NCBI RefSeq assembly: GCF_003012935.1
Contig: NZ_PUDR01000016.1
Span: forward strand, 1 to 64,000
Length of the DNA: 64,000 nt
Direction: 5' to 3'
DNA from: Pannonibacter carbonis
GTDB lineage: Bacteria > Pseudomonadota > Alphaproteobacteria > Rhizobiales > Stappiaceae
The position numbers and the translations under genes are program-made. The notes beneath the pieces are model-generated. The model was not told where the DNA came from. It did not search any database and saw only the letters and a list, made by a program, of their open reading frames with translations. This document shows positions 20,976 to 35,551 of this stretch, one piece after another (positions within the stretch are counted from its first letter, which is position 1; each line of letters starts with the position of its first letter).

Positions 20976-22958
20976 ATGCGAGTTCCGTCCAAACAGTCAG
21001 GCCCCGCTGCGGTTGTTGACCGCGCGGATGGTCCCCTGCCCCGCCCCGCTCCCAACCGGACGGCCTGGCGGACAGGGTTGTTTTGCGCCGGTTTCCTGCT
21101 TGCCTCTGCCTCGGTCCTGATGCCGCTGCCGGCCGGGGCCTTCGAACTTTTCGGGTACCGCCTGTGGGGCTCGGCGAGCGACGACGCCAACACGCCGGAT
21201 GCCTTTCCCTATGTTCCGACGCTGACCCTTTCAGGCGGTGATGACCCGCTCAAGGAACGGCTGACTGCTGCCTCCGTTCTGATGAGCGAGGCCGAAAAGG
21301 CTCCCTCTGGCGAGGCGGGTCTGATTGCCCGTGCACTCAATGATTTCGACCGGCTGATCGCCCAGCTCTATGTCGAGGGTCGCTATGGCGGCACGGTCGA
21401 CATCAAGATCGCCGGGCTGCCGCTGCAAAGCGCGCTGCAGCGCGGCAGCCTGCCGGGTCCGCGTCCGGTCCCTGTGACCATCGCCATTTCGGCCGGTCCG
21501 CTGTTCACCTTTGGCGACGTGCGCATTGGCGCGGAAGGGGCTGCGGCCAGCCAGCTGTCGACCGATCCCGGATTCTGGGGCCTTGCGCCTGGCACAACGG
21601 CGGATTCGTCCAAGGTCCTCGTTGCCGAACGGCAGATCCTGAACACATTGCGCGCGCGCGGCTTCCCGAAGGCGCGCATCGTCACCCGTGACATCACCGC
21701 CGACCACGCCAATGACCATCTGGACGTGACGCTCGTCGCCAACGCCGGAGAGCAGGCACGTTTCGGCGCGGTCACGGTCACAGGAACCAAGGTGACCGAT
21801 CCGAATTTTGTCGTGGCACAGGCGATGATCCCGGAAGGGTCCATCTATGATCCCGAGATTCTGGCTGCTGCCCAGAAACGCCTGAATGACCTGGGCATCT
21901 TTGCCAGCGTCAACATGGTCGAGGCCGACACGATCGGACCGGACGGCGCGCTGCCAGTCACCATCGAGGTCTCCGAGCGCAAGCGGCACGTGCTTGGCGC
22001 TGGCGCGACCTGGTCGTCAACGGAAGGCGGCGGCTTCGAGGCCTACTGGCGCCGGCGCAACCTGTTCGGACAGGGCGAGCTTCTTTCCGTCGAAGGCTCG
22101 GTCGGCCGGCTCGGCAATTCCTCGTTCAAGGACATGGAATATGCCGCGAAGATCGCCTTCGAGAAGCCGGGCGTGTTTGGCCCGCTGACCAGTTTCAGCA
22201 CCTCCCTGTCGGCCAAGCAGGAAGCGCCCAACGCCTATACAAGCCGCTCGGTCGCCTATGATGCCTATCTGAAGCGTCAGTTCACCGACCAGTTCACTGG
22301 CCGGGCTGGTTTCGAGGTCGCCTTCCTCGACGAGAAAGACGCCTATGGCAAGAAGACCTATCTGCTGACCGGCCTGCCTGCTGACCTCACCTATGACACG
22401 CGGGACGACAAGCTCAATCCCTCCAAGGGTTTGCTGGCGACTGCTTTTGCCGAACCGGCCTATGACATCCGCAACCGCAACATGATGATGTTCATGAAGG
22501 GGTCGGTGTCGAGCTACGTGGCGCTGGACGAGGCCAAGCGCTTCATCCTGGCCGGGCGCCTCACGGCGGGCAGCATTGTCGGGCCGCAGGTGGATGACAT
22601 TCCGGCCGGCCGGCGCTTCTTTGCCGGCGGCGGTGGCTCGATCCGTGGCTACGCCTACCGAAACGTCGGTCCGCGCCGCAATGGCGAGGTCACCGGTGGA
22701 CGCAGCCTCATCGAGATGTCGGGGGAAGTGCGCGTCCGCCTGACCGAGACGTTCGGCGCGGTCGCCTTTGTCGACGCCGGCAATGTCTATAATGCCTCGG
22801 TGCCCGACTTCTCGCGCCCCTTCAAGATCGGTATCGGCGCGGGCATCCGCTACTTCACGCCGATCGGCCCGCTGCGCCTTGATGTTGCGGTCCCACTTTC
22901 GCCGGAAAAGGGTGATCCTGATTTCGCGATCTACCTCGGCCTCAGTCAGGCCTTCTGA
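20976..22958 (+). CDS. tamA: TamA, Omp85-family outer-membrane assembly barrel
   Basis: 660 residues from the ATG at 20976 (a TTG just before is also in frame). After a basic 30-residue lead, a hydrophobic signal segment ends at about PLPAGA. POTRA-type periplasmic repeats follow (for example FGDVRIG, FGAVTVTG, LGAGATWS), then a 16-strand type barrel with the family IRGY turn near residue 555 and a terminal Phe (SQAF) typical of outer-membrane barrels. TamA works with TamB to move autotransporters and lipids to the outer membrane. The partner tamB starts 14 bases downstream, which settles TamA over BamA. Confidence 0.92.
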   Translation: MRVPSKQSGPAAVVDRADGPLPRPAPNRTAWRTGLFCAGFLLASASVLMPLPAGAFELFGYRLWGSASDDANTPDAFPYVPTLTLSGGDDPLKERLTAASVLMSEAEKAPSGEAGLIARALNDFDRLIAQLYVEGRYGGTVDIKIAGLPLQSALQRGSLPGPRPVPVTIAISAGPLFTFGDVRIGAEGAAASQLSTDPGFWGLAPGTTADSSKVLVAERQILNTLRARGFPKARIVTRDITADHANDHLDVTLVANAGEQARFGAVTVTGTKVTDPNFVVAQAMIPEGSIYDPEILAAAQKRLNDLGIFASVNMVEADTIGPDGALPVTIEVSERKRHVLGAGATWSSTEGGGFEAYWRRRNLFGQGELLSVEGSVGRLGNSSFKDMEYAAKIAFEKPGVFGPLTSFSTSLSAKQEAPNAYTSRSVAYDAYLKRQFTDQFTGRAGFEVAFLDEKDAYGKKTYLLTGLPADLTYDTRDDKLNPSKGLLATAFAEPAYDIRNRNMMMFMKGSVSSYVALDEAKRFILAGRLTAGSIVGPQVDDIPAGRRFFAGGGGSIRGYAYRNVGPRRNGEVTGGRSLIEMSGEVRVRLTETFGAVAFVDAGNVYNASVPDFSRPFKIGIGAGIRYFTPIGPLRLDVAVPLSPEKGDPDFAIYLGLSQAF

Positions 22959-22972
22959 ACCGGACAAAGCAC

Positions 22973-25900
22973 GTGCGGCGTATTCTGAAAGCCTTGCTCT
23001 ACACCGCCCTTGGCAGCACGGCACTTGCCGGGCTCGCGCTTGCGCTCGTGCCGACACCGCTCGGGGAAAGCCTAATCCAGCAGCTGGCCAATGACGCGCT
23101 GGACTTGCCCGAGGGCGGCGCCCGGCTGGAAGGCCTCTCGATTTCCTGGTCCGGCAACGCCTCGCTCGCCTCGCTGACCCTGACGGACAGCCAGGGGACC
23201 TATGCCACCGTGTCGGGGATCGCCCTCGACTGGCGGCCACTGGCGCTGTTCACCGGACAGATGCACATCACCGCCCTGGCCGCCGATCTGTTTGACCTGC
23301 AGCGCCGGCCGACGCCGGCACAGGCCCAACAGGCCAGCCCGGCGAAAGATGGCCCGTTCCTTCCCATAGCCGAGGTCCGGATCGACAAGCTTGACCTGCC
23401 ACGGATCCAGCTTGACGCGCCGGTGGCCGGCGTTCCGGTGACCCTGGCAGCCAAGGCCGAAGGGTCGGCTCAGGCAGTGCCAGAAACCATTTCCGCCCGG
23501 CTCGGCATCACCCGGATCGACGGCACACCCGGAACGGTTGCCGCCGATGTCAGCTTCGCACCGGGTGCCGGCACGCTCGACTTCAGCCTCAAGGCCAATG
23601 AACCGCGTGGCGGCATCATTGCCCGGCTCGCTGGCATTGACGAGCTTCCGGCACTGGATCTTGACCTTGCCGGCTCCGGGCCCCTCGCAGACTGGGGCGC
23701 CAGGCTGGCGCTTGCCCTTGATGACCGCCCGACGGTCATCGGCACAGCGCGCCTGACCGCAGCAGCCGATGCGAAGCGCAGCCTGACAGTCGAGCTCGAC
23801 GGCGATCTCGGGCCTTTGGTCCCGCCGATTGCCGGTGCCCTGTTCCAGGGGACGACACGACTGGCCGGTTCGGCAGACCTCTCCGGGACGTTCCAGCCGC
23901 TGGGCGCAACGCTGACCATCCGCACCGGGACGCTGCAGGTCTCAGCCTCCGGCAGTCTCGATCCGGCGACGCAGGCCCTCACCGGGCTGGCGGACGTGAT
24001 GCTGGCAGCTGGCGGCGATGCCCTGATCGGCATCGAGACTGGCACTGGCTCCAGCTCTGGCCTCACCACCTTGAAACGTCTGACCGCCTCGGCCAAGCTC
24101 GACGGCTCTCTCGATCGAGCAACCTGGCATGCCAGCATCGAAACCGATACGCTTGCCACGCCGGCCGGGCAGCTTGCCTCCGCCCGGCTGGACGCGACAG
24201 GCGTCGGCGCAAGTGTTCGGCCAGGCGCCGTGTCGGTGCCCCTTACTGCCACCTTGCGCTTCGCCGGTCTGTCACCGCAGGACCCGCGATTTGCTCCCTT
24301 CGCCGGGGCAAGCACGGCCGAGATAGCCGGTCGCTTTACAGTCAAAGGCGGCATGCCCGTGCTGCGCCTGGCGCGGGGCAGCGCTAACCTGCCGGTACTG
24401 TCGCTACAACTGGGCGAAAGCGAGATCAGCCTCGCACAGACACGGCTGACGGGAGACCTGCGCCTGCCGGATCTTGCCAGTCTCGCTCCGCTCGCCGGCC
24501 TGCCGCTGTCCGGCAGCCTGGGGGCCGGCTTCCGCACCGACCTGAACCTCAATGACCCGTCCGGCACTGTTGCCCTATCACTTGCCGGCACCGATCTGGC
24601 CGCCGGCATCGCTCCGCTTGATAGCCTTCTGGCCGGCAAGACCCAGGCGACTGCCAATTTAACGCTTGCCGGGGACGGCACGGTGGGCCTGCGTAACCTT
24701 GCCCTTACTGCCCCCGGCGCAACCCTCTCCGGCAACGCCGAACTGAAGCAGGACGATGATGACGGTCTCGATGGCGACCTCACCCTGACCCTGCCCGATC
24801 TGTCGCGCCTTGATCCGCGGCTTGGCGGAAGCCTGACGGCCGAGGCTGACCTGTCCGGTGCGCTGGCACGTCCCGGGCTTGAGCTGACCGCGACCTCGAA
24901 CCAGATCCTGCTGTCAGGCACGCCGCTCAGCGACCTGTCGCTGGCCCTCTCCGGTCAAGCCGATCCGGATGCGCCGCGCGGGGAACTGAACCTGTCGGCC
25001 AGACTGAACGGCGCGCCGCTGGTGGCACGGGGTGAAGTGTCGAGCACCGATGGCCGCGCCGAGCTGACGGGCTTCGAGGCTGCCGTCGGCGGCAACCGGC
25101 TCAGCGGCGAGCTGACAGTCGCGGACCTGACCCGCGCGCTCGAGAGCGTCAGCGGCACGCTGGCCCTGAACGCCCCCGACCTTTCGGAACTCTCCCCCCT
25201 TGCCCTCACCGCCCTCTCCGGCCGCCTGACGGCGCAGGCTGCGATCAGCGCTGACGCCAAGGGCCCGCGCGTCCGCCTTACGGCAGAGGGCGCAGGCGTG
25301 GGCCTGCCGCAAGCAGCCGTCGACAGCTTCAAGGTCGACGCGGACCTGTTTGATCTGACCGCCGTCCCGCAAGCCTCCGGCACGGTGTCGGCATCCGGCC
25401 TCCTGGCCGGCGGCACGCGGCTTTCCAGCCTTGCGGCCACGGCCAAGAGCGACGGCACCCGCACGGATTTCACGCTGGATGCGCGCCTGCCGGGCACCGC
25501 CAAGGACGGCGTCGCTGCGGCCGGCAGCATGACGGCGGTCGCGGCTGGCTTTGACCTGACGCTCGCCCGACTGGACGGCACCTACAGCGGCCTCAAGACA
25601 TCGCTGGTGCGCCCGGCGCGGCTGTCCTACGCCAATGCCATTGCCCGGCTTGACGAGGTTGCCCTCGCCCTCGGCAGCGGCTCCCTTGTGATCCAGGGCA
25701 CCGCCGGCGAGACGCTGAACCTCAATGGCACGCTGAAATCCGTGCCGGTGGCCCTCGCCAACGCCTTCAGTCCGGGGCTCGGGCTTGCCGGCACGCTCAG
25801 TGGCTCGGTCAAGGTCAGTGGCGCGGCCAGCGCGCCGGTTGCCAGCTGGCAGCTGACGGGCGCGGGTCTTTCGGCGGCGGCCCTCGCCAGCAACGGCATC

Positions 25901-27328
25901 GCCCCGCTTGGCCTCGACAGCCGTGGCAGCTTCCAGGGCCAGCGCATCGAGCAGACCAGCAAGGTGATCGGCGACGGAGGCCTGTCGCTCACCGCAACTG
26001 GCCCGGTGAACATCGCCGGTGCCGGATCGCTGGCGCTTGAAATCTCCGGCAGCGTGCCGCTGGCGCTCGCCCGCCCTGCCCTGACGCGGTCCGGGTTCCG
26101 GGGCGAAGGCGCGCTGGCCGTGTCCGGGCGGATCGGCGGAACGTTCGCCGCGCCCGATTACGCCCTGACGGCGCGTCCGCAAGGCGTCAGCTTCACCGAG
26201 CTTTCCTCCGGCTTCACCCTGCGCGATGTGACCGGCACCATCGACGTCACCCGCGACCGGATCGTTGTCAACGGCATCACCGCTGCCATTGCTGCCGGAG
26301 GCACCGTGAAGGCCAGCGGCTCGGTCGGGCTGTCGCAAGGCATGCCGGCGGATCTGTCCATCACGGTCGACAATGGCCGCTACAGCGATGGCCGCATCGT
26401 CTCGGCCGATATTGGTGCTGCCCTCAAGGTCAGCGGCCCGCTGGCAGGCGGCGGCGTTTTGTCCGGCACGGTGAATGTGCAAGATGCCAACATCGCCATT
26501 CCCCAGTCCCTGCCCGGCAGCCTGTCGCCGCTGGCGGTGCGACACGTCAATGCGCCCAAGCCCGTGCGCGAGCAGGTGGCAGAGTTGAAGCAGGACATGG
26601 GCGAGACAGGCGGCGGCTCGGGCAGCGGCGGACTGTCGCTCGACGTCACCGTCAACGCGCCGGCCCGCATCTTCGTGCGCGGCCGTGGTCTTGATGCGGA
26701 GCTGGGCGGTTCGCTGCGCATCGTTGGCACGACGGCTCAGCCGCAAGCCATTGGCGGCATCACGCTGCGCCGTGGCCAGCTGGATGTGCTCACCCGGCGG
26801 CTTGCCTTCTCGCAAGGCTCGGTCACCTTCACGGGCTCGCTGACGCCGACGCTGAATTTCGTGGCCACCACCACCGCCAGTTCGACCACCATCAATGTGA
26901 CCATCAGCGGCAGCGCCGCGGATCCGGTGATCGCCCTGTCGTCGTCGCCCTCGCTGCCTCAGGACGAAATCCTCGCCCAGCTGCTGTTCGACCGCAGCAT
27001 GACCAGCCTGTCGCCGACGCAGATCGCCCAGTTGGCCGCCGCCGTGGCAACGCTGACCGGTGGCAGCGACCAGGGTCCCCTTGCCCAGCTGCGCAAGTCG
27101 CTCGGGCTGGACGCGGTCGATCTCAATGTCGCAGGTCCAGGCGGACCGTCCCTGTCGGTGGGCAAGTACATCAATGACAACATCTATCTGGGCGTCGAAC
27201 AGGGCACCGGCCGCGACTCCTCCAAGGTCAAGGTCGACATCGACCTGTCGCGCAATCTGAAAGCCCGTGGCGAAGTGGGGGCGACCGGGTCGTCGAAGGC
27301 CGGCATCTATTTCGAAAAGGAATATTGA
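22973..27328 (+). CDS. tamB: TamB translocation and assembly module, DUF490
   Basis: A 1451-residue protein starting at a GTG. One N-terminal membrane anchor (about 5-27) is followed by a very long run of repeating amphipathic strands rich in Ala, Gly, Leu and Asp (the AsmA/TamB beta-taco fold), and a C-terminal DUF490 domain with SLPQDEILAQLLF, GLDAVDL and the ending AGIYFEKEY. It bridges the inner membrane and TamA in the outer membrane and is now thought to carry phospholipid. The coding bias over 4.3 kb is so strong that the opposite strand also stays open in long frames. Operon with tamA. Confidence 0.93.
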   Translation: MRRILKALLYTALGSTALAGLALALVPTPLGESLIQQLANDALDLPEGGARLEGLSISWSGNASLASLTLTDSQGTYATVSGIALDWRPLALFTGQMHITALAADLFDLQRRPTPAQAQQASPAKDGPFLPIAEVRIDKLDLPRIQLDAPVAGVPVTLAAKAEGSAQAVPETISARLGITRIDGTPGTVAADVSFAPGAGTLDFSLKANEPRGGIIARLAGIDELPALDLDLAGSGPLADWGARLALALDDRPTVIGTARLTAAADAKRSLTVELDGDLGPLVPPIAGALFQGTTRLAGSADLSGTFQPLGATLTIRTGTLQVSASGSLDPATQALTGLADVMLAAGGDALIGIETGTGSSSGLTTLKRLTASAKLDGSLDRATWHASIETDTLATPAGQLASARLDATGVGASVRPGAVSVPLTATLRFAGLSPQDPRFAPFAGASTAEIAGRFTVKGGMPVLRLARGSANLPVLSLQLGESEISLAQTRLTGDLRLPDLASLAPLAGLPLSGSLGAGFRTDLNLNDPSGTVALSLAGTDLAAGIAPLDSLLAGKTQATANLTLAGDGTVGLRNLALTAPGATLSGNAELKQDDDDGLDGDLTLTLPDLSRLDPRLGGSLTAEADLSGALARPGLELTATSNQILLSGTPLSDLSLALSGQADPDAPRGELNLSARLNGAPLVARGEVSSTDGRAELTGFEAAVGGNRLSGELTVADLTRALESVSGTLALNAPDLSELSPLALTALSGRLTAQAAISADAKGPRVRLTAEGAGVGLPQAAVDSFKVDADLFDLTAVPQASGTVSASGLLAGGTRLSSLAATAKSDGTRTDFTLDARLPGTAKDGVAAAGSMTAVAAGFDLTLARLDGTYSGLKTSLVRPARLSYANAIARLDEVALALGSGSLVIQGTAGETLNLNGTLKSVPVALANAFSPGLGLAGTLSGSVKVSGAASAPVASWQLTGAGLSAAALASNGIAPLGLDSRGSFQGQRIEQTSKVIGDGGLSLTATGPVNIAGAGSLALEISGSVPLALARPALTRSGFRGEGALAVSGRIGGTFAAPDYALTARPQGVSFTELSSGFTLRDVTGTIDVTRDRIVVNGITAAIAAGGTVKASGSVGLSQGMPADLSITVDNGRYSDGRIVSADIGAALKVSGPLAGGGVLSGTVNVQDANIAIPQSLPGSLSPLAVRHVNAPKPVREQVAELKQDMGETGGGSGSGGLSLDVTVNAPARIFVRGRGLDAELGGSLRIVGTTAQPQAIGGITLRRGQLDVLTRRLAFSQGSVTFTGSLTPTLNFVATTTASSTTINVTISGSAADPVIALSSSPSLPQDEILAQLLFDRSMTSLSPTQIAQLAAAVATLTGGSDQGPLAQLRKSLGLDAVDLNVAGPGGPSLSVGKYINDNIYLGVEQGTGRDSSKVKVDIDLSRNLKARGEVGATGSSKAGIYFEKEY

Positions 27329-27403
27329 TCTGCCTCAGCGTGCAGGTCGCACCCCTGCCTGCACACGATGTGCAAAGGCCCTTTACCGCGCGCCTCGAAA
27401 CTG

Positions 27404-27417
27404 TTTAACATGTTAAA
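27404..27417. promoter_or_regulatory. perfect 14-base palindrome upstream of gabD
   Basis: TTTAACA/TGTTAAA with no spacer, in the gap between tamB and the aldehyde dehydrogenase, about 85 bases before the gabD ATG. The AT-rich palindrome looks like a MarR- or GntR-type operator; which regulator binds is unknown. Confidence 0.45.
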
Positions 27418-27500
27418 TAATAGGCGCTGACGTGACGTCTCGCCTGATACATGCCACACACGTCCGACACGACGGGCAAGACAAATCGGGGGAGACCGAC

Positions 27501-28958
27501 ATGGGCCTTGATGCAAATCTGGTGAAGCAGCAGCTGTACATCGATGGAGCCTGGGTTCCGGCGGACAGCGGCCAGACCATCCGCGTCGACAATCCGGCAA
27601 CGCTTGAGACCATCGGCACCGTTCCGAAAGCCGGGCGCGCCGAAACGCGCCGCGCCATCGAGGCCGCGCACAAGGCGCTGGCCGGCTGGAAGGCCCTGAC
27701 GGCAGAGGATCGCGCGGGCCGCATGCACAAGCTGTGCGATGCGATCATGGCGAACCATGATGCGCTGGCCGAGTTGCTCACCACCGAAATGGGCAAGCCG
27801 CTGGCCGAGGCCAAGGGCGAAATTGCGCTTGGCGTGAAGTACATCCGCTTCTTCGCCGAAGAGGGCAAGCGCATCTACGGCGACGTCATTCCCGCCCCCT
27901 GGGCCGGCAAGCGCATCCTTGTCACCAAGGAGCCGGTCGGCGTCGTCGGGGCCATCACGCCCTGGAACTTCCCGAACTCCATGATCGCGCGCAAGCTCGG
28001 CGCCGCGCTCGGGGCCGGCTGCACCATCGTCATCAAGCCGGCCAGCCAGACGCCCTACTCTGCCCTCGCTTTCGGCGCGATGGCGGAGGCAGCGGGCATT
28101 CCGGCCGGCGTCATCAACGTGGTCACCGGTTCGGCAGCCGAAATCGCGGCGGAGATGTGCGAGCATCCCCTCCTGCGCAAGATCACCTTCACCGGCTCGA
28201 CCGAAGTCGGCAAGCTGCTTGCCAGCGAGGCAGGCAAGCACATGAAGAAGATTTCGATGGAACTGGGCGGCAACGCACCCTTCATCGTCTTCGACGATGC
28301 AGATCTCGATGCGGCTGTCGCCGGCGCAATGATTTCCAAGTTCCGCAACTCCGGCCAGACCTGCGTCTGCGCCAACCGGCTCTATGTCCAGGCCGGCGTC
28401 TATGACGCCTTTGCTGCCAAGCTGAAGGCGGCCGTCGAGGCACAGCTAAAGGTCGGCGACGGGCGCAAGGACGGCATCACCCAGGGTCCGCTGATCGACA
28501 CCGGTGCCATTGCCAAGGTCGAGGAACACATCGCCGACGCGGTCGCCAAGGGAGGCACTATCCTGACCGGCGGCGCACGCATCGGCAACGAGGGCAGCTT
28601 CTTCCAGCCGACCATCGTTGCGGGAGCCACCGCCGAGATGAAGGTGGCGCGCGAGGAGACCTTCGGCCCGCTTGCCCCGCTGTTCCACTTCGAGACCGAA
28701 GAGGAAGTCATTCGGCTTGCCAATGACACCGAGTATGGCCTGGCCTGCTACTTCTATGCCCAGAACCTTGGCCGGGTGTTCCGGGTCATGGAAGCGCTGG
28801 AATACGGCCTTGTCGGCATCAACGAAGGCCTGATCACCACGGAAGTCGCCCCCTTCGGCGGCGTCAAGGACAGCGGCATGGGCCGCGAAGGCTCGAAATA
28901 CGGCGTCGACGACTACCTCAGCATCAAATACGCCTGCATCGGCGGTCTGGGGCTCTGA
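27501..28958 (+). CDS. gabD: NAD(P)-dependent succinate-semialdehyde dehydrogenase family protein
   Basis: 485 residues from the ATG at 27501, with GGGGGAGA upstream; a frame start at 27432 is rejected. An aldehyde dehydrogenase closest to GabD: TPWNFP in the cofactor site, the general-base Glu in ELGGNAPF (about 254), the catalytic Cys288 in SGQTCVC, and EETFGP near the end. A second Cys two residues after the catalytic one, as in GabD proteins that can form a redox switch. It oxidises succinate or glutarate semialdehyde to feed the TCA cycle. No transaminase lies beside it. The palindrome at 27404-27417 is a likely control site. Confidence 0.88.
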   Translation: MGLDANLVKQQLYIDGAWVPADSGQTIRVDNPATLETIGTVPKAGRAETRRAIEAAHKALAGWKALTAEDRAGRMHKLCDAIMANHDALAELLTTEMGKPLAEAKGEIALGVKYIRFFAEEGKRIYGDVIPAPWAGKRILVTKEPVGVVGAITPWNFPNSMIARKLGAALGAGCTIVIKPASQTPYSALAFGAMAEAAGIPAGVINVVTGSAAEIAAEMCEHPLLRKITFTGSTEVGKLLASEAGKHMKKISMELGGNAPFIVFDDADLDAAVAGAMISKFRNSGQTCVCANRLYVQAGVYDAFAAKLKAAVEAQLKVGDGRKDGITQGPLIDTGAIAKVEEHIADAVAKGGTILTGGARIGNEGSFFQPTIVAGATAEMKVAREETFGPLAPLFHFETEEEVIRLANDTEYGLACYFYAQNLGRVFRVMEALEYGLVGINEGLITTEVAPFGGVKDSGMGREGSKYGVDDYLSIKYACIGGLGL

Positions 28959-28972
28959 GCCATTCCATGGCG

Positions 28973-28994
28973 CGCCGCAGCTCAGGCTGCGGCG
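28973..28994. terminator. stem between convergent gabD and the EAL gene
   Basis: Perfect eight-base arms CGCCGCAG (28973-28980) and CTGCGGCG (28987-28994) with a six-base loop, in the 23-base convergent gap and reaching into the last codons of the minus-strand gene. No T-run on either side, so bidirectional termination is only suggested. Confidence 0.35.
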
Positions 28995-31513
28995 TGCTGC
29001 AAGGCAAGGAGGTCCTCGGCACTCATCGGACGGCCGTAAAGATAGCCCTGCCCGATGTGACAACCGAGCCGGCGCAACACGTCTTCCTGGGCCCGCGTTT
29101 CAATGCCCTCCGCGATGACCGTGATATCGAAGCCGCGCGCCAGTTCGACAACGCTGCGGACGATGGCAACGCTGCCCTTGTCGACGGCGACCCGTTCCAC
29201 AAACGACCGATCGATCTTGATCTTCGAGAATGGGAAGCGCGGAATGTAACCGAGCGATGAGTAGCCAGACCCGAAGTCATCGAGGGCGAGGCCACAGCCG
29301 AGGCTCCGCAGACGCGAGATGCTGGCGGCAACCTGATCAGCCTGCCCGAGGAACAGGGATTCGACGAGTTCCAGATCCAGTTGAGACGGCGACAGCCCCG
29401 ACGATGCGAGCGCCGCTTCGACGGCTGTGGTGACCGACCCGCGCTCGACCTGGATCGGGGAGACATTGACCGCAAGGCGCAATGGCAGGTTCCATCCCTG
29501 CACGGTTTGACAAGCCTCACGCAGAACAAAGGCTCCGAGCGGCTCGATCAGACCACTCTCCTCTGCAATGGGAATGAACTCGACGGGCGACACATTGCCG
29601 AGCTCAGGATGCTGCCAGCGCAGCAGTGCCTCGACGCCGATCATCTTGCCACCCTGCAGCTCGACCTGAGGCTGGTAGACGACGTGGAACTGGCCCTTCT
29701 GGATGCCCTCCTCAAGATCAATCTCGAGGAGCCGGCGACGGGTCACGGCATGCAGCATGGCCTGGTCGAACCGGCGTATCGTACGTGGACCTGACTTCCG
29801 GGCCCACGACAGAGCCGTGCCGGCCTGGCGCAGCATGGCCGCGGCGTCAGGTACATCCTCAGGAGCAAGCGTCGCCAGACCAAAGCAGGCGCTGATGTGC
29901 AGACGGTGGCCACCAAGAACGAGTTCCCGCGATATTCGCTGCAACACCTCCTGACAAAATTCTTCAGGCACAACGCCGTCCGGAAATCCGGCCAACGCAA
30001 GCTGCCGGTCACCGACACTGGCGACAAACTCGCATCCGAGCTGTCGCAATTCGTGGGCGATCGCCGCACGAACCTTGTCAGCCCAGCTAAGCCCGAGGGA
30101 CGCGGCGATGATATCGATGCGCTCAAGGCCGGCGACGAGCAGGTGATAGTCACCCGCGCGCCGCGCCCCGTCCTGTAGGCGGATCTGCAAAGCTTCTTCG
30201 AAGGCGCGCCGGTCCAGCAGGTCGGTTATCGGGTCGTGACGGGCAAGATAGGCAAAGGCATCTTCCGCACGCCGCTTGTCGGTGATGTCACGACAGGTCA
30301 GGCAGGTCACCACATCCGGCCGATCTCCCTCGATCCCGGCAAGCACGGAGGCTGTAACCGCGTATTCGATCAATCGGGCATTGTCCGGCTGGTCGCCAAG
30401 CTTGATTGCAATTTCGTGCAGTCTGACACCTTCATCCTGCGATTCCGGATCTGTAATTGCGTTCTGAAGCGTCACCACGACTTCGGACGGCAGCACGTCT
30501 GGAGCACAGGTCCCACTGCGAATGGGGGCACGCCAGATTGCTTCCGCGCTGCCGCTGGCAGCGCGGACGATGCCCTTGCTGTCGACAACGATCACGCCAT
30601 CGAAGTTATCCTTGAACACCTGATCGAGGATCCGGCGGTCGTTTTCCTGCTCCCGGTGGATCGCGCGGATCTGCAGCTGGCGAACCCCGATTTCCCGTAG
30701 CAGGGCCGCAAGGGCCAAGACGATCAGGGCGATCTGGGCAGGCACCGTGTCGAGGCTCAGCGGTGCGATGGCCTGTACAGCGAGCGCGACGATCTCCAGC
30801 CCGACAGAAAGGATAAAGAACAGGACGAGCCGCGGCCGCCAGGTCGTCATGCCCGAAAGCGTTGCAATGGCCCCGATCGCGAGCACAAGTGCCAGCAACG
30901 GGTAGCCGAAACCGCTGCTCATCGCCCTGTCGGCCAGCAGGCTTTCGGCTGCCAGGATCTGCAGCAGCGCTCCGGGCAGAATGCCATGCACCGGGACATT
31001 GAAGTAATCCCGCAGCTCCTGTGCACTGGCTCCGATCACGACCTTGCGCCCCTCAAGCGCGCCGGAATCAACCCTGCCTGCCAGAACATCCCCCGCTGAG
31101 ATGCGCGGGATACTGCCCGGATCAATACTGAAATCGATACCAAACGTCTGCAATATGCCGCCATCCGCTCCTGCTGCCATGGCAGACAGAGACAGCACAG
31201 CTTCGCCATGAATGCTGTCGGCAAAAAGCGACGACCGGATCCTTCCGTCGCTGTCAACCGGCAGGCTGACTGTCACTGGCCAGGCATGGTCCAGAAGGGG
31301 CGAAATCGGAATGTTCGTGAGGCGTTTTTCTGCAGGGAGCGCCGGGTCAGACGGTTGCCGAAAGACTGCAAGGTAAACCGAGCCCTCTGCCCGTTGCAGC
31401 GCCGCCGCAAATTTGCTGTCTTCGACTGGACCAGAGTAGGCGCTGAAGTCGATATCGAAATAGATTTCTGCGGCACCGGCTGCCCGGAGGCGGTCAACAA
31501 GTTCGCCGTGCAA
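28982..31513 (-). CDS. CHASE2-PAS-GGDEF(degenerate)-EAL protein, 5' end cut by in-frame stop
   Basis: This 843-residue frame starts at a TTG inside the CHASE2 sensor domain, so it is not the natural N-terminus. In the same frame, codons upstream to 31633 read VFVDIDASSLRKVGVWPWARG, a normal CHASE2 opening, and then meet TAA at 31634-31636. Beyond it the frame continues to ATG-ATG at 31780. In this numbering: CHASE2 to about 190, three hydrophobic segments (about 200-275), PAS (about 295-410), a GGDEF domain whose signature is VGDRQ (500-504) instead of GGDEF, and an EAL domain with EAL (628-630), ELVES, LDDFGSGYSS, KIKID and AEGIET intact. It should therefore break down, not make, cyclic-di-GMP, if expressed. 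It lies 31 bases after the FecR gene. It may be a pseudogene or may re-initiate internally. Confidence 0.8.
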   Translation of the reverse strand: MHGELVDRLRAAGAAEIYFDIDFSAYSGPVEDSKFAAALQRAEGSVYLAVFRQPSDPALPAEKRLTNIPISPLLDHAWPVTVSLPVDSDGRIRSSLFADSIHGEAVLSLSAMAAGADGGILQTFGIDFSIDPGSIPRISAGDVLAGRVDSGALEGRKVVIGASAQELRDYFNVPVHGILPGALLQILAAESLLADRAMSSGFGYPLLALVLAIGAIATLSGMTTWRPRLVLFFILSVGLEIVALAVQAIAPLSLDTVPAQIALIVLALAALLREIGVRQLQIRAIHREQENDRRILDQVFKDNFDGVIVVDSKGIVRAASGSAEAIWRAPIRSGTCAPDVLPSEVVVTLQNAITDPESQDEGVRLHEIAIKLGDQPDNARLIEYAVTASVLAGIEGDRPDVVTCLTCRDITDKRRAEDAFAYLARHDPITDLLDRRAFEEALQIRLQDGARRAGDYHLLVAGLERIDIIAASLGLSWADKVRAAIAHELRQLGCEFVASVGDRQLALAGFPDGVVPEEFCQEVLQRISRELVLGGHRLHISACFGLATLAPEDVPDAAAMLRQAGTALSWARKSGPRTIRRFDQAMLHAVTRRRLLEIDLEEGIQKGQFHVVYQPQVELQGGKMIGVEALLRWQHPELGNVSPVEFIPIAEESGLIEPLGAFVLREACQTVQGWNLPLRLAVNVSPIQVERGSVTTAVEAALASSGLSPSQLDLELVESLFLGQADQVAASISRLRSLGCGLALDDFGSGYSSLGYIPRFPFSKIKIDRSFVERVAVDKGSVAIVRSVVELARGFDITVIAEGIETRAQEDVLRRLGCHIGQGYLYGRPMSAEDLLALQHAAA

Positions 31514-31633
31514 TCCGCGGGCCCAGGGCCATACTCCGACCTTGCGAAGGCTGCTTGCGTCAATATCAACGAATACAATCTCGCCTGACGCCTGGCGCTC
31601 CAGCAGCGAATACCTGACCTCCTGGATGGCCCG

Positions 31634-31780
31634 TTAAATCGGCTGCAGCCAGCCCTTCGTGTGCAGGCCGACGGCTAGCAACGCGGCAATCACGGCCGCC
31701 AGAGCGCAGCTGACCGAAGCCAGTCGAACCAACTGACGGGCCAGTTGAGCCAGCGACTGCAAGCGACCTCCACGCATCAT
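31634..31780 (-). pseudogene. N-terminal membrane-anchor fragment of the split CHASE2 gene
   Basis: A 48-codon piece from ATG-ATG (31780) to TAA (31634-31636). It holds a basic N-terminus and one hydrophobic helix (SCALAAVIAALLAVGL), exactly the anchor expected before a CHASE2 domain, then ...LQPI-stop-RAIQEVRYSLL in unchanged frame. A single base change, GAA (Glu) to TAA, would explain the break. An AGG sits about ten bases before the ATG, 31 bases after the FecR stop. Confidence 0.7.
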
Positions 31781-31811: not shown

Positions 31812-33062
31812 TCACTGGCGTCCATTGCCGTTGCCGCCAGCATTGCCATTGCCGTTGCCGCCAGCATTGCCATTGCCATTGCCGCCAGCGTTGCCATTGC
31901 CGTTGCCGCCAGCGTTGCCATTGCCATTGCCGCCAGCGTTGCCATTGCCGTTACCGCCGGCATTGCCATTGCCATTGCCGCCAGCATTGCCGTTGCCATT
32001 GCCGCCAGCATTGCCATTGCCGTTACCGCCAGCATTGCCGTTGCCATTGCCGCCAGCGTTGCCGTTGCCATCGCCGCCAGCGTTGCCATTGCCGTTACCG
32101 CCGGCGTTGCCATTGCCATTGCCGCCAGCGTTGCCGTTGCCATTGCCGCCAGCATTGCCGTTGCCGTTGCCGCCAGCATTGCCGTTGCCGTTGCCGCCAG
32201 CATTGCCGTTGCCATTGCCGCCAGCGTTGCTGTTGCCATTGCCGCCGGCGTTGCCGGCGGGACCGCTGTCATGCGGAGAGCTGTCATTCACCACTGTGCC
32301 GGTACTACGGGTACTGCCGGCCGGGCTTGCGTCAGTTGCCAGGCTTGCCGCAGGAGACAGCGGCGCTGTGAAGGTGGACGAGGCAGGAGCCAGTCCACTC
32401 TCGACGGAGGGAAGGGTGCCGGATCCGGTTACGCTTAGGCCGACACCGTCCTGCGTGCTGGCTTGTTGCCCGGCCCCGATATCAGACCGCTCGCCGGTAT
32501 CGAGATCGATCACCTGGACCAGGCCGCGCTCAACCTCGACCTTTGCCTGCCCTTTGCGGATCTGGACACCAAAGCGCGTGCCCTTGACCACGGCGGCCAG
32601 GAACGGGGTCTCGACAACAAAATGCGGCCGGGCACGCTTCTGCACATCCACCGTCACCTGGCCGTCGCGCTGCAGGAGGGTCGTGGTCTCGCCCGTGCTT
32701 TTCAGGCGCGAGATAGCGACCGTCGAATTCGGCGAGACCAGAATGGTCTCCCGGCCACGAACCAGCAGCGCCTTCGCCCCGCTTCTCGTTGCAAGGGTTA
32801 CGCCTTTCGGCAGGACCATGCCGCTTCGCGCGGCGACGGGCTCAACGCCCGGTGAAAGCAGGTATACCTTGCCGCTGCTGCGCTGGATCACCCAGTCGGC
32901 AGCCAGAACCGGCGAGGACAGCAAGAACAAGGCAAGGATCGTGCCCGCAAGAGACGCCGCCGCCGCAGCAGCAGATCCCCGTCTGGTCGGAGCCAGGCGT
33001 GTTGCCGGATGACCAATTGATCTGTGCCCGAGAAGGCCGGCCCGCGGTGTCCGCATTTGCAT
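31812..33062 (-). CDS. FecR-domain periplasmic protein with glycine/asparagine repeat tail
   Basis: 416 residues. A long basic lead and a hydrophobic segment (about 35-54) ending VLAADW form a signal peptide or anchor. The FecR domain (about 58-200) has the pattern LATRSGAKALLVRGRETILVSPNSTV, then VETPFLAAVVKGTRFGV and a VERGLVQV strand. A Ser/Thr/Pro linker follows. The last about 145 residues are 18 copies of AGGNGNGN, with one Asp and one Ser variant. FecR-domain proteins are often encoded next to CHASE2 cyclases or phosphodiesterases, and here the CHASE2-EAL gene starts 31 bases downstream, so the pair probably forms an envelope-to-cyclic-di-GMP signalling unit. An AGGA sits just before the ATG. 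Confidence 0.85.
   Translation of the reverse strand: MQMRTPRAGLLGHRSIGHPATRLAPTRRGSAAAAAASLAGTILALFLLSSPVLAADWVIQRSSGKVYLLSPGVEPVAARSGMVLPKGVTLATRSGAKALLVRGRETILVSPNSTVAISRLKSTGETTTLLQRDGQVTVDVQKRARPHFVVETPFLAAVVKGTRFGVQIRKGQAKVEVERGLVQVIDLDTGERSDIGAGQQASTQDGVGLSVTGSGTLPSVESGLAPASSTFTAPLSPAASLATDASPAGSTRSTGTVVNDSSPHDSGPAGNAGGNGNSNAGGNGNGNAGGNGNGNAGGNGNGNAGGNGNGNAGGNGNGNAGGNGNGNAGGDGNGNAGGNGNGNAGGNGNGNAGGNGNGNAGGNGNGNAGGNGNGNAGGNGNGNAGGNGNGNAGGNGNGNAGGNGNGNAGGNGNGRQ
31818..32249. repeat. 18 tandem 24-base coding repeats
   Basis: Eighteen uninterrupted 24-base units in the minus-strand FecR gene, each coding AGGNGNGN. Units differ mainly at third positions (GCT/GCC/GCG, AAC/AAT), plus one Asn-to-Asp and one Gly-to-Ser change. 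The array stays open in several other frames on both strands, which produces artefact reading frames. Such arrays are prone to length change by slippage. Confidence 0.95.
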
Positions 33063-33195: not shown

Positions 33196-33918
33196 TCAGA
33201 TCGTCTCTGCCAGCATCCTGGCCTCCACAGCTCGAAACAATTCCGCCTCGTCGATATTCATCTGTTCAATGCCGCAGCGGATCGCCCGTTCGAACACACC
33301 CACATCAGACCCGGCGTAGAACATCTGCGTCACCAGCCCGGCGTCCCGCGCCTGGGCGACGCGCTCGGGCGTGACATTGCCCTCGTGGAATTCGAGAATA
33401 TGCGCCTCGGCCGCAACGGCCCGTTCGACCGAGCCCATATGCTGGAACAGCACCATACGGCGCAGGTCCGGCACCCTTGCGCGCATCTGCGCCCGGATGT
33501 CCTGGTCAAAGGAGAAGGACCAGGCCCGACCCAGCATGCCGCGCGCGGCCAGCATGTCGCGCACCCGCGCCGGGTCCGCCGCCTTGATCTCGGCATAGGT
33601 GCCGACGCGCCCCTTGCAGGCATCCAGGAACACCGACAGACGCGGAAGCCGCTGGCCCGCAAAGGCTGGCGAGAACCAGCTGCCGGCATCCAGTCGATCC
33701 AGTTCGGCCGAGGTCATGTCCGCCACGCGGCCGTGTCCGTTACTTGTACGGTCCACGGTCTCGTCGTGGATGACATAAAGCACGCCGTCGCGGCTTGTGT
33801 GGATGTCGAACTCAACTACATCGGCTCCTGCGGCAATCGCTGCCTCCAGCGCTGCCAGCGTGTTCTCCGGCGCCTTGCGCGACAGGCCACGATGGCAGAT
33901 GAGCACGGCTTTCTTCAC
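33196..33918 (-). CDS. ugpQ: glycerophosphodiester phosphodiesterase
   Basis: 240 residues starting at a GTG with AAGGGA upstream. GDPD TIM-barrel: HRGLSRKAPENT (9-20), EFDIHTSRDGVLYVIHD (36-52) with the metal-binding Glu and Asp and the second His, then the YAEIK strand. No signal peptide, so it is cytoplasmic like UgpQ. It cleaves glycerophosphodiesters to glycerol-3-phosphate and an alcohol. It precedes the FecR gene on the same strand with a 133-base gap, probably a separate unit. Confidence 0.93.
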   Translation of the reverse strand: MKKAVLICHRGLSRKAPENTLAALEAAIAAGADVVEFDIHTSRDGVLYVIHDETVDRTSNGHGRVADMTSAELDRLDAGSWFSPAFAGQRLPRLSVFLDACKGRVGTYAEIKAADPARVRDMLAARGMLGRAWSFSFDQDIRAQMRARVPDLRRMVLFQHMGSVERAVAAEAHILEFHEGNVTPERVAQARDAGLVTQMFYAGSDVGVFERAIRCGIEQMNIDEAELFRAVEARMLAETI

Positions 33919-34330
33919 AACGAATCCCTTCGGCTTCCACCACCAATGATTGCAGCAGATGGAAAAATCTTGTTATGGATGCGGACTTGACTGCTTCCTT
34001 CCTGCACCAGTCCGTTGATGGATTGATGACAAAACGGCCCTTGCCCCCCGACATTCCATTGTGCATTGCACCACCACCTTCGCTCACATCTGCGGCAAAA
34101 GCCCGTGATCAGGCCTTGCCGCATGGAGCCGCAAGACCCGAAGACTGCGTATTTCTCCGCAGTTTTCCGCAGAGATCAGTCTTTATTCGTGGTCAGTTCA
34201 CCGGGTAACTCTTGGTCATCGTTCACTCCTAGTGAACGGCGCGTCAAATTGTGCCTTGCGCAAAATCAGCTACATGTAACAGCGCCGGCATCACTGATGC
34301 CTTTCTGTTTATCCCTTCCGGAGACGTCGC
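33919..34330. other. divergent gap upstream of yceI, with palindrome
   Basis: 412 bases between divergent genes. No credible gene. It holds the inverted repeat at 34220-34238 and AT-richer sequence near 34240-34290 that probably contains the yceI promoter. Confidence 0.45.
34220..34238. promoter_or_regulatory. candidate operator for the yceI-b561-yceI operon
   Basis: Perfect eight-base arms CGTTCACT and AGTGAACG around CCT, 93 bases before the first yceI ATG. The two-fold symmetry and short spacer fit a dimeric repressor site. The alphaproteobacterial LexA box is a direct repeat, so this is not an SOS site. Confidence 0.5.
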
Positions 34331-34909
34331 ATGACCCGCTTTGCAGCTTCTGCCCTCGCCCTCGCCCTGTTCGCCACTCCGGCGCTCGCCGAGCCGGTGG
34401 CCTATTCCTTCGACAAGAGCCACTCGAATCTCTCCTTCACCTATGACCACCTCGGCTACTCGACCACCGATGGCCGCTTCGGCAACTGGGATGCGACGCT
34501 CCTCATTGATGCCGACAAGCCGGAAGCCTCGTCGATCGAGTTCACCATCGACACTACGTCGCTCGACACCTTCTTCGCCGATCGCGACACGCACCTGAAG
34601 AGCGCCGACTTCTTTGACGTCGCACAGTTCCCGCAGGCGACATTCAAGAGCACCAAGGTGACCAAGACTGGTGACAAGGAACTGGAGATCGTTGGCGACC
34701 TCACGATCAAGGGCGTCACCAAGCCGGCCACCCTCGCCGTCAAGGTAACAGCCATGGGCGAACATCCGATGGCCAAGATGCCGGCGGTCGGTTTTGCCGG
34801 CACCACCACGATCAAGCGGTCCGACTACGGCATGAACATGTTCGTCCCTTATGTCAGCGACGAGGTCACCATCACCTTGCATGCTGAAACCCTCGCCGCG
34901 GCCAAGTAA
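34331..34909 (+). CDS. YceI-family periplasmic lipocalin-like protein (copy 1)
   Basis: 192 residues with a signal peptide cleaved after ATPALA. YceI domain: FDKSHSNLSFTYDHLGYSTTDGRF, then FTIDTTSLDT, LKSADFFDVAQFPQATF and LTIKGVTKPATL, the hallmark stretch. The family folds as a beta-barrel that binds a polyisoprenoid chain such as ubiquinone. First gene of a three-gene operon with a cytochrome b561 and a second YceI, suggesting quinone handling or electron transfer at the inner membrane. Confidence 0.93.
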   Translation: MTRFAASALALALFATPALAEPVAYSFDKSHSNLSFTYDHLGYSTTDGRFGNWDATLLIDADKPEASSIEFTIDTTSLDTFFADRDTHLKSADFFDVAQFPQATFKSTKVTKTGDKELEIVGDLTIKGVTKPATLAVKVTAMGEHPMAKMPAVGFAGTTTIKRSDYGMNMFVPYVSDEVTITLHAETLAAAK

Positions 34910-34972
34910 GGTCAGCGCGGTCCGGGCCGGACGGTCCCCATCACGTCCGGCCCACCTATCAGGAGAGCCTGC

Positions 34973-35551
34973 ATGCTGCGCAACAGTTCCAATGGTTACG
35001 GCTGGATCGCCATTGCCTTTCACTGGTCCATGGCCCTGATGATCATCGGGATGATCGGTCTTGGAATGTACATGCACAGGCTGCCCCTCACCGATCCGGC
35101 GACCTTTGCCCTGTTCCAGTTGCACAAGTCGATCGGCTTCGTGGTGCTTGCCTTGACCGTGCTGCGCCTCGTCTGGCGCCTTGCCAACCCGAGCCCGGCC
35201 CTGCCGGCGGCAATGCCGGCCTGGGAAAAGGCAGCGGCGCATCTGGGCCATCTCGGGCTCTATGGCCTGCTCTTTGCCATTCCGCTGACTGGCTGGCTGA
35301 TGGTTTCGGCGTCCCCCTGGAACATTCCGACCATTCTCTTCGGCGCCGTGCACATGCCGCATCTGACCATCCCCGAGGCGCTCGGCACGAAGGCGGAGGC
35401 CGAGACCCTGTTCAAGGATCTGCACGAGCTGTTTGCCTGGCTGCTGATCCTGCTGCTGGTCGCCCATATCGGGGCTGCCCTGAAGCATCATTTCCTGGCG
35501 CGCGACGGCGTCCTCCTCCGGATGCTGCGTCCCGGCCGCACTGCTGGCTGA
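34973..35551 (+). CDS. cytochrome b561, YceJ-like
   Basis: 192 residues with four membrane helices (about 12-32, 45-68, 90-112, 150-170). Candidate haem b ligands are His17 (FHW), His51 (QLHKSIG), His151 (DLHELFAW) and His165. This di-haem b family passes electrons from quinol or superoxide across the membrane. It lies between two yceI genes in close spacing, the same partnership as E. coli yceJ-yceI. Confidence 0.93.
   Translation: MLRNSSNGYGWIAIAFHWSMALMIIGMIGLGMYMHRLPLTDPATFALFQLHKSIGFVVLALTVLRLVWRLANPSPALPAAMPAWEKAAAHLGHLGLYGLLFAIPLTGWLMVSASPWNIPTILFGAVHMPHLTIPEALGTKAEAETLFKDLHELFAWLLILLLVAHIGAALKHHFLARDGVLLRMLRPGRTAG

Follow-up and report, generated by a model that had tools for sequence, protein, structure and literature searches.

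In Shigella flexneri, the degenerate diguanylate cyclase genes dgcQ, dgcN, and dgcM carry a premature stop codon before an intact catalytic part, and the sections of that report drawn on here describe some of these nonsense-split c-di-GMP genes as still active, consistent with internal starts (in-frame stop/Met at 56/59 in dgcQ, 177/180 in dgcM, and 120/101 in dgcN, with products shown; PMC11327459). A second related arrangement is the BiofilmReg operon of Burkholderia contaminans, in which, according to the cited excerpt, the gene for a LysM-FecR protein is followed by that for a CHASE2 histidine kinase (PMC5192318). The locus presented here, from a window of 64,000 nucleotides (the whole stretch of DNA that was analyzed), resembles the dgc genes, as far as the cited sections describe them, in that a c-di-GMP enzyme gene is cut ahead of its intact catalytic part, but it has no ATG, GTG, or TTG in the first 40 codons behind the stop and is described here from its sequence. 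As in the BiofilmReg excerpt, a FecR-domain gene lies directly upstream of a sensor built from one helix, CHASE2, and three helices. The two differ in output: BiofilmReg uses a histidine kinase and its operon includes a response regulator gene, whereas the window protein has GGDEF-EAL. They differ in the FecR protein too, which carries LysM in BiofilmReg but in the window ends in a Gly/Asn repeat tail and gives no LysM match in Pfam.

The gene is the second of a conserved FecR and CHASE2-GGDEF-EAL pair, and we consider it likely that one recent nonsense substitution put it out of action. It looks like a fresh nonsense allele of the ordinary kind and not like a new mechanism. An earlier sequence-only reading had proposed a split by an in-frame TAA without any frame change, and we observe that the two sides do share the frame opened by the ATG-ATG at 31780: on the minus strand, 48 codons lead to the TAA (31636-31634), and the 883 codons behind it run uninterrupted to the stop that ends the gene at 28982 (Table 1). 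The VFVDID and WPWARG motifs said to lie behind the stop are found at 31576-31559 and 31531-31514.

Table 1. Features of the split sensor gene and its surroundings (window coordinates)
Feature	Position	Strand	Remarks
FecR-domain protein gene, upstream partner, Gly/Asn repeat tail	31812..33062	-	Pfam
Broken CHASE2-GGDEF-EAL membrane protein gene	28982..31780	-	48 codons, TAA, 883 codons
Severed 5' piece, 48 codons, with first membrane helix (about 31667-31732)	31637..31780	-	Hydropathy
In-frame premature TAA	31634..31636	-	Asp/Glu at column in 26/31 loci read, stop in 0/31
Shine-Dalgarno-like AGGAGGT just behind stop	31617..31623	-	Then CTG CTG at 31606, 31603
CHASE2 sensor domain	30917..31591	-	Pfam PF05226, E = 2.2e-29; wholly behind stop
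First canonical in-frame start behind stop, TTG	31511..31513	-	-2.8 kcal/mol, poor Shine-Dalgarno match; directly behind WPWARG
Three more membrane helices after CHASE2	30674..30922	-	Hydropathy
GGDEF domain, degenerate signature VGDRQ	29789..30244	-	Pfam; signature at 30002-30019
EAL domain, usual motifs EALLRW, DDFGSGYSS, KIDRSF, AEGIET retained	29027..29719	-	PF00563, E = 5.3e-71

With respect to domain architecture, Pfam matches CHASE2 (PF05226), GGDEF (E = 1.4e-9), and EAL behind the stop and no domain on the 48-codon piece, so that the first membrane helix is encoded but severed by the TAA from the CHASE2 polypeptide. Of the CHASE2-PAS-GGDEF-EAL order first proposed, CHASE2, GGDEF, and EAL hold, the GGDEF with a degenerate signature, whereas PAS is not supported: Pfam gives no PAS match at E 0.001, the only hit over the putative PAS part is a weak one to AtoS in NCBIfam (E = 0.037), and the label is a guess. 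The EAL motifs that we take to be catalytic had been called intact, in agreement with alignments to the dual-domain GGDEF-EAL structures PDB 5m3c and 4rnh (presumably MucR and MorA of Pseudomonas), which span the GGDEF-EAL part (E = 2.2e-75 and 5e-74) and keep these motifs, with CHASE2 outside the matched part and the GGDEF signature degenerate in the window protein. A sequence search for a solved CHASE2 structure gave one match, which was not significant (E = 0.48). Judged from its domains, the intact protein is most likely a c-di-GMP phosphodiesterase. The VGDRQ found where the GG(D/E)EF signature of an active diguanylate cyclase is expected suggests that it is probably a phosphodiesterase only. 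In the intact protein, with its four membrane helices, CHASE2 and probably the FecR partner too would lie outside the inner membrane, and the degenerate GGDEF and a working EAL inside it. With the stop in place, translation would end once the first membrane helix has been made, leaving hardly any enzyme, or none, that is properly inserted, and the locus would be on its way out or carry a private mutation of the isolate. The same genome holds nineteen other GGDEF and/or EAL matches, indicating that the c-di-GMP activity is probably redundant.

Orthologues run unbroken across the position of the stop, which rules out a chance ORF boundary. In a family search (best ten candidates per genome scored in nearly all genomes), a match at E <= 1e-100 was found in 41 of 87 genomes, its own included, and in the 40 others the open frame is 925 to 1,137 residues long without inner stops, compared to 883 for the window copy. 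Thirty-four loci (five named records of three genera and 29 family loci) could be aligned over most of the protein; all of them are open upstream of the stop column and have a 19-residue stretch of mean hydropathy >=1.6 within the 50 residues before it. A natural start downstream of the stop in the relatives, which the sequence-only reading had named as grounds for abandoning its claim, is rejected on account of these open frames and anchor-like stretches. That reading had also called for an orthologue alignment at the stop codon and expected a sense codon, most likely Glu. Across the 31 loci read at this column (L003, L096, and L102, whose local alignments do not start at the first residue, were left out), we find Asp/Glu in 26, other residues in 5, and a stop in none, and the codon of the nearest orthologue is one step from TAA. 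The window aligned with the 29 family loci, L096 and L102 among them, likewise shows no other stop at this position. The TAA is therefore a premature stop at a column where relatives have sense codons, as in a nonsense pseudogene.

Programmed recoding by a conserved stop is rejected, since none of the 31 loci has a stop at the column. Readthrough of the TAA in this one copy, which would yield some full-length protein, fits a frame that is open on both sides. We nevertheless regard it as extremely improbable, because the column shows no conserved recoding, because bacteria read through TAA less than through any other stop, and because it terminates ordinary ORFs in the window (2 among 28 long ORFs selected for their length, one of them a chemoreceptor according to Pfam).

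The FecR and CHASE2-GGDEF-EAL pair is conserved, with the sensor as second gene. In the window, the sensor gene begins 31 bases behind the FecR-domain gene, directly downstream on the same strand, and 33 of the 34 upstream ORFs scanned, that of the window included, have a PF04773 match (window, 5 named loci, and 28 family loci; L113 was dropped, as its locus ends some 400 bases upstream). The tail of the window FecR protein is a 24-base repeat in 18 copies (window 31822-32255) encoding GNGNAGGN; by eye, most of the upstream partners listed have Gly/Asn-rich tails. The gene order TamB-SSDH-PDE-FecR-GDPD is repeated in the congener G004 and in G042 of another genus, and in part in G011 (without a GDPD match) and G040 (without SSDH and GDPD matches), with G009 giving good matches for PDE and FecR only. 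A similar order is thus present in G004 and, whole or in part, in three of the four genomes examined from other genera. The pair is recurrent across the family, and a literature search on CHASE2 with FecR, or CHASE2 with EAL phosphodiesterase, returned no title on a FecR and CHASE2-EAL pair.

We observe constraint on the gene up to the recent past. Compared with the G004 orthologue, the part behind the stop shows 76% identity (dN 0.179, dS 1.17, dN/dS 0.153), and the part before it, over 46 aligned codons, a dN/dS of 0.39. Conservation is lower in the anchor (53% of 45 aligned residues) than in the remainder of the protein (76% of 883), but this is uninformative as a sign of a shortened protein, as the same direction is seen in 7 of 9 unbroken orthologue pairs used as controls. 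Of 113 columns without variation among the other 29 sequences, 2 are broken in the window copy, and the G004 copy likewise breaks 2 of its 113; for 90% columns the values are 13/178 for the window, 16/181 for G004, and 6 to 19 for six others. Relative-rate tests with six outgroups give no excess change in the window lineage (chi2 0.01 to 1.99, none significant; 49 versus 43 changes and chi2 0.39 with outgroup L090). In simulations of neutral change at 0.01, 0.02, and 0.03 substitutions per site, 5.5%, 64.5%, and 97% of 200 runs became significant, and 46.5%, 17.5%, and 9% were free of a second stop. Old decay is rejected by these tests and the simulation, which indicate that selection ended very recently or still acts. 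The claims that the rest of the gene is undamaged and that the change is very recent both agree with this outcome.

The unaccelerated part behind the stop means that the stop is very recent, or is an assembly error, or that product is still made. The stop could be an assembly or sequencing error in a gene that is unbroken in the living strain, for which a single wrong base would suffice in this draft assembly of 33 contigs, and the absence of decay would follow. We consider such an error unlikely, as three neighboring genes align with those of the congener G003 over nearly their full length (TamB 1,447 codons, SSDH 508, fumarase 545), the 21 other matches in the same genome have no inner stop, and assemblies contain fewer substitution errors than indel errors.

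A still-translated enzyme would be equally expected to lack decay, which counts against loss of function, as does the strong Shine-Dalgarno-like site behind the stop. This AGGAGGT, one of 5 occurrences in the window on both strands, lies 10 bases upstream of the CTG at 31606, and its duplex energy with the 16S tail is -11.5 kcal/mol, compared to -3.7 for the gene's own ATG and -8.6 for the G004 start. Re-initiation there would give an anchor-less 874-residue protein next to a 48-residue membrane peptide, and deeper internal starts with fair sites, TTG 31153 (723 aa, -10.2 kcal/mol) and GTG 30313 (443 aa, -7.8 kcal/mol), could free shorter EAL-bearing pieces, with much or all of CHASE2 lost; a start at TTG 31513 would cut off the VFVDID...WPWARG part of CHASE2. 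By analogy, the cited sections on Shigella indicate that genes of like type can make product after a nonsense codon, with dgcQ (stop 56, Met 59) yielding two proteins and c-di-GMP from a plasmid (PMC11327459). We nevertheless find re-initiation quite improbable for the window gene, given the absence of canonical starts from the first 40 codons, and given that AGGAGGT and CTG CTG also occur in the intact G004 gene, indicating that the site did not arise as a start. CTG, moreover, is a poor start codon. A CHASE2 domain without the first helix would probably stay unexported, and three helices would be predicted to place the EAL end across the membrane from its proper side or leave it misinserted. 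The more specific proposal that the stop made a two-cistron unit, in which the pre-existing Shine-Dalgarno-like sequence would serve a CTG-re-initiated CHASE2-GGDEF-EAL enzyme behind the 48-residue peptide and so free the phosphodiesterase from its first anchor and FecR partner, we hold to be very improbable.

Read as a nonsense inactivation, the locus would be one more example of the one-at-a-time loss of c-di-GMP enzymes, at a very early stage; should the gene still yield product, it would rank with the Shigella cases, as the cited sections present them, of annotated pseudogenes that still signal (PMC11327459). Within the genus, for which all candidates were scored, the gene is found in 2 of 5 genomes, those of the window and G004. 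At E <= 1e-100 it is absent from G001, G002, and G003, in which no FecR partner was found either, indicating that the genus can do without the pair. These three genomes do contain weaker, partial CHASE2 matches (29 to 45% identity; E 1.5e-8 or worse), which belong to other proteins. Among plasmid records, 863 match pieces of the locus and none covers 80% of it.

G003, the closest congener by SSDH (97%), is used here solely to show that the pair is dispensable. It lacks both pair genes: one aligned block ends at window 28962, the next starts at 33210, and G003 has 112 bases between them. Its identity to the window in 300-base bins is 92 to 99% over 25740-28960, 68 to 88% over 33205-35005, and 93 to 98% beyond, except for a short 89% bin before 36400, and dS is 1.14 for GDPD, 0.11 for SSDH, 0.09 for fumarase, and 0.39 for TamB. 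From window 28962 to about 35000, compared with the G003 locus (L140), the drop in identity and the missing FecR-PDE pair suggest recombination: G003 may have acquired a segment lacking the pair, the window genome may have acquired one carrying it, or a deletion may have taken place beside an exchange. Such a mosaic extends beyond this stretch, since the region further left (22120-28962, 89% overall) and TamB are more divergent too.
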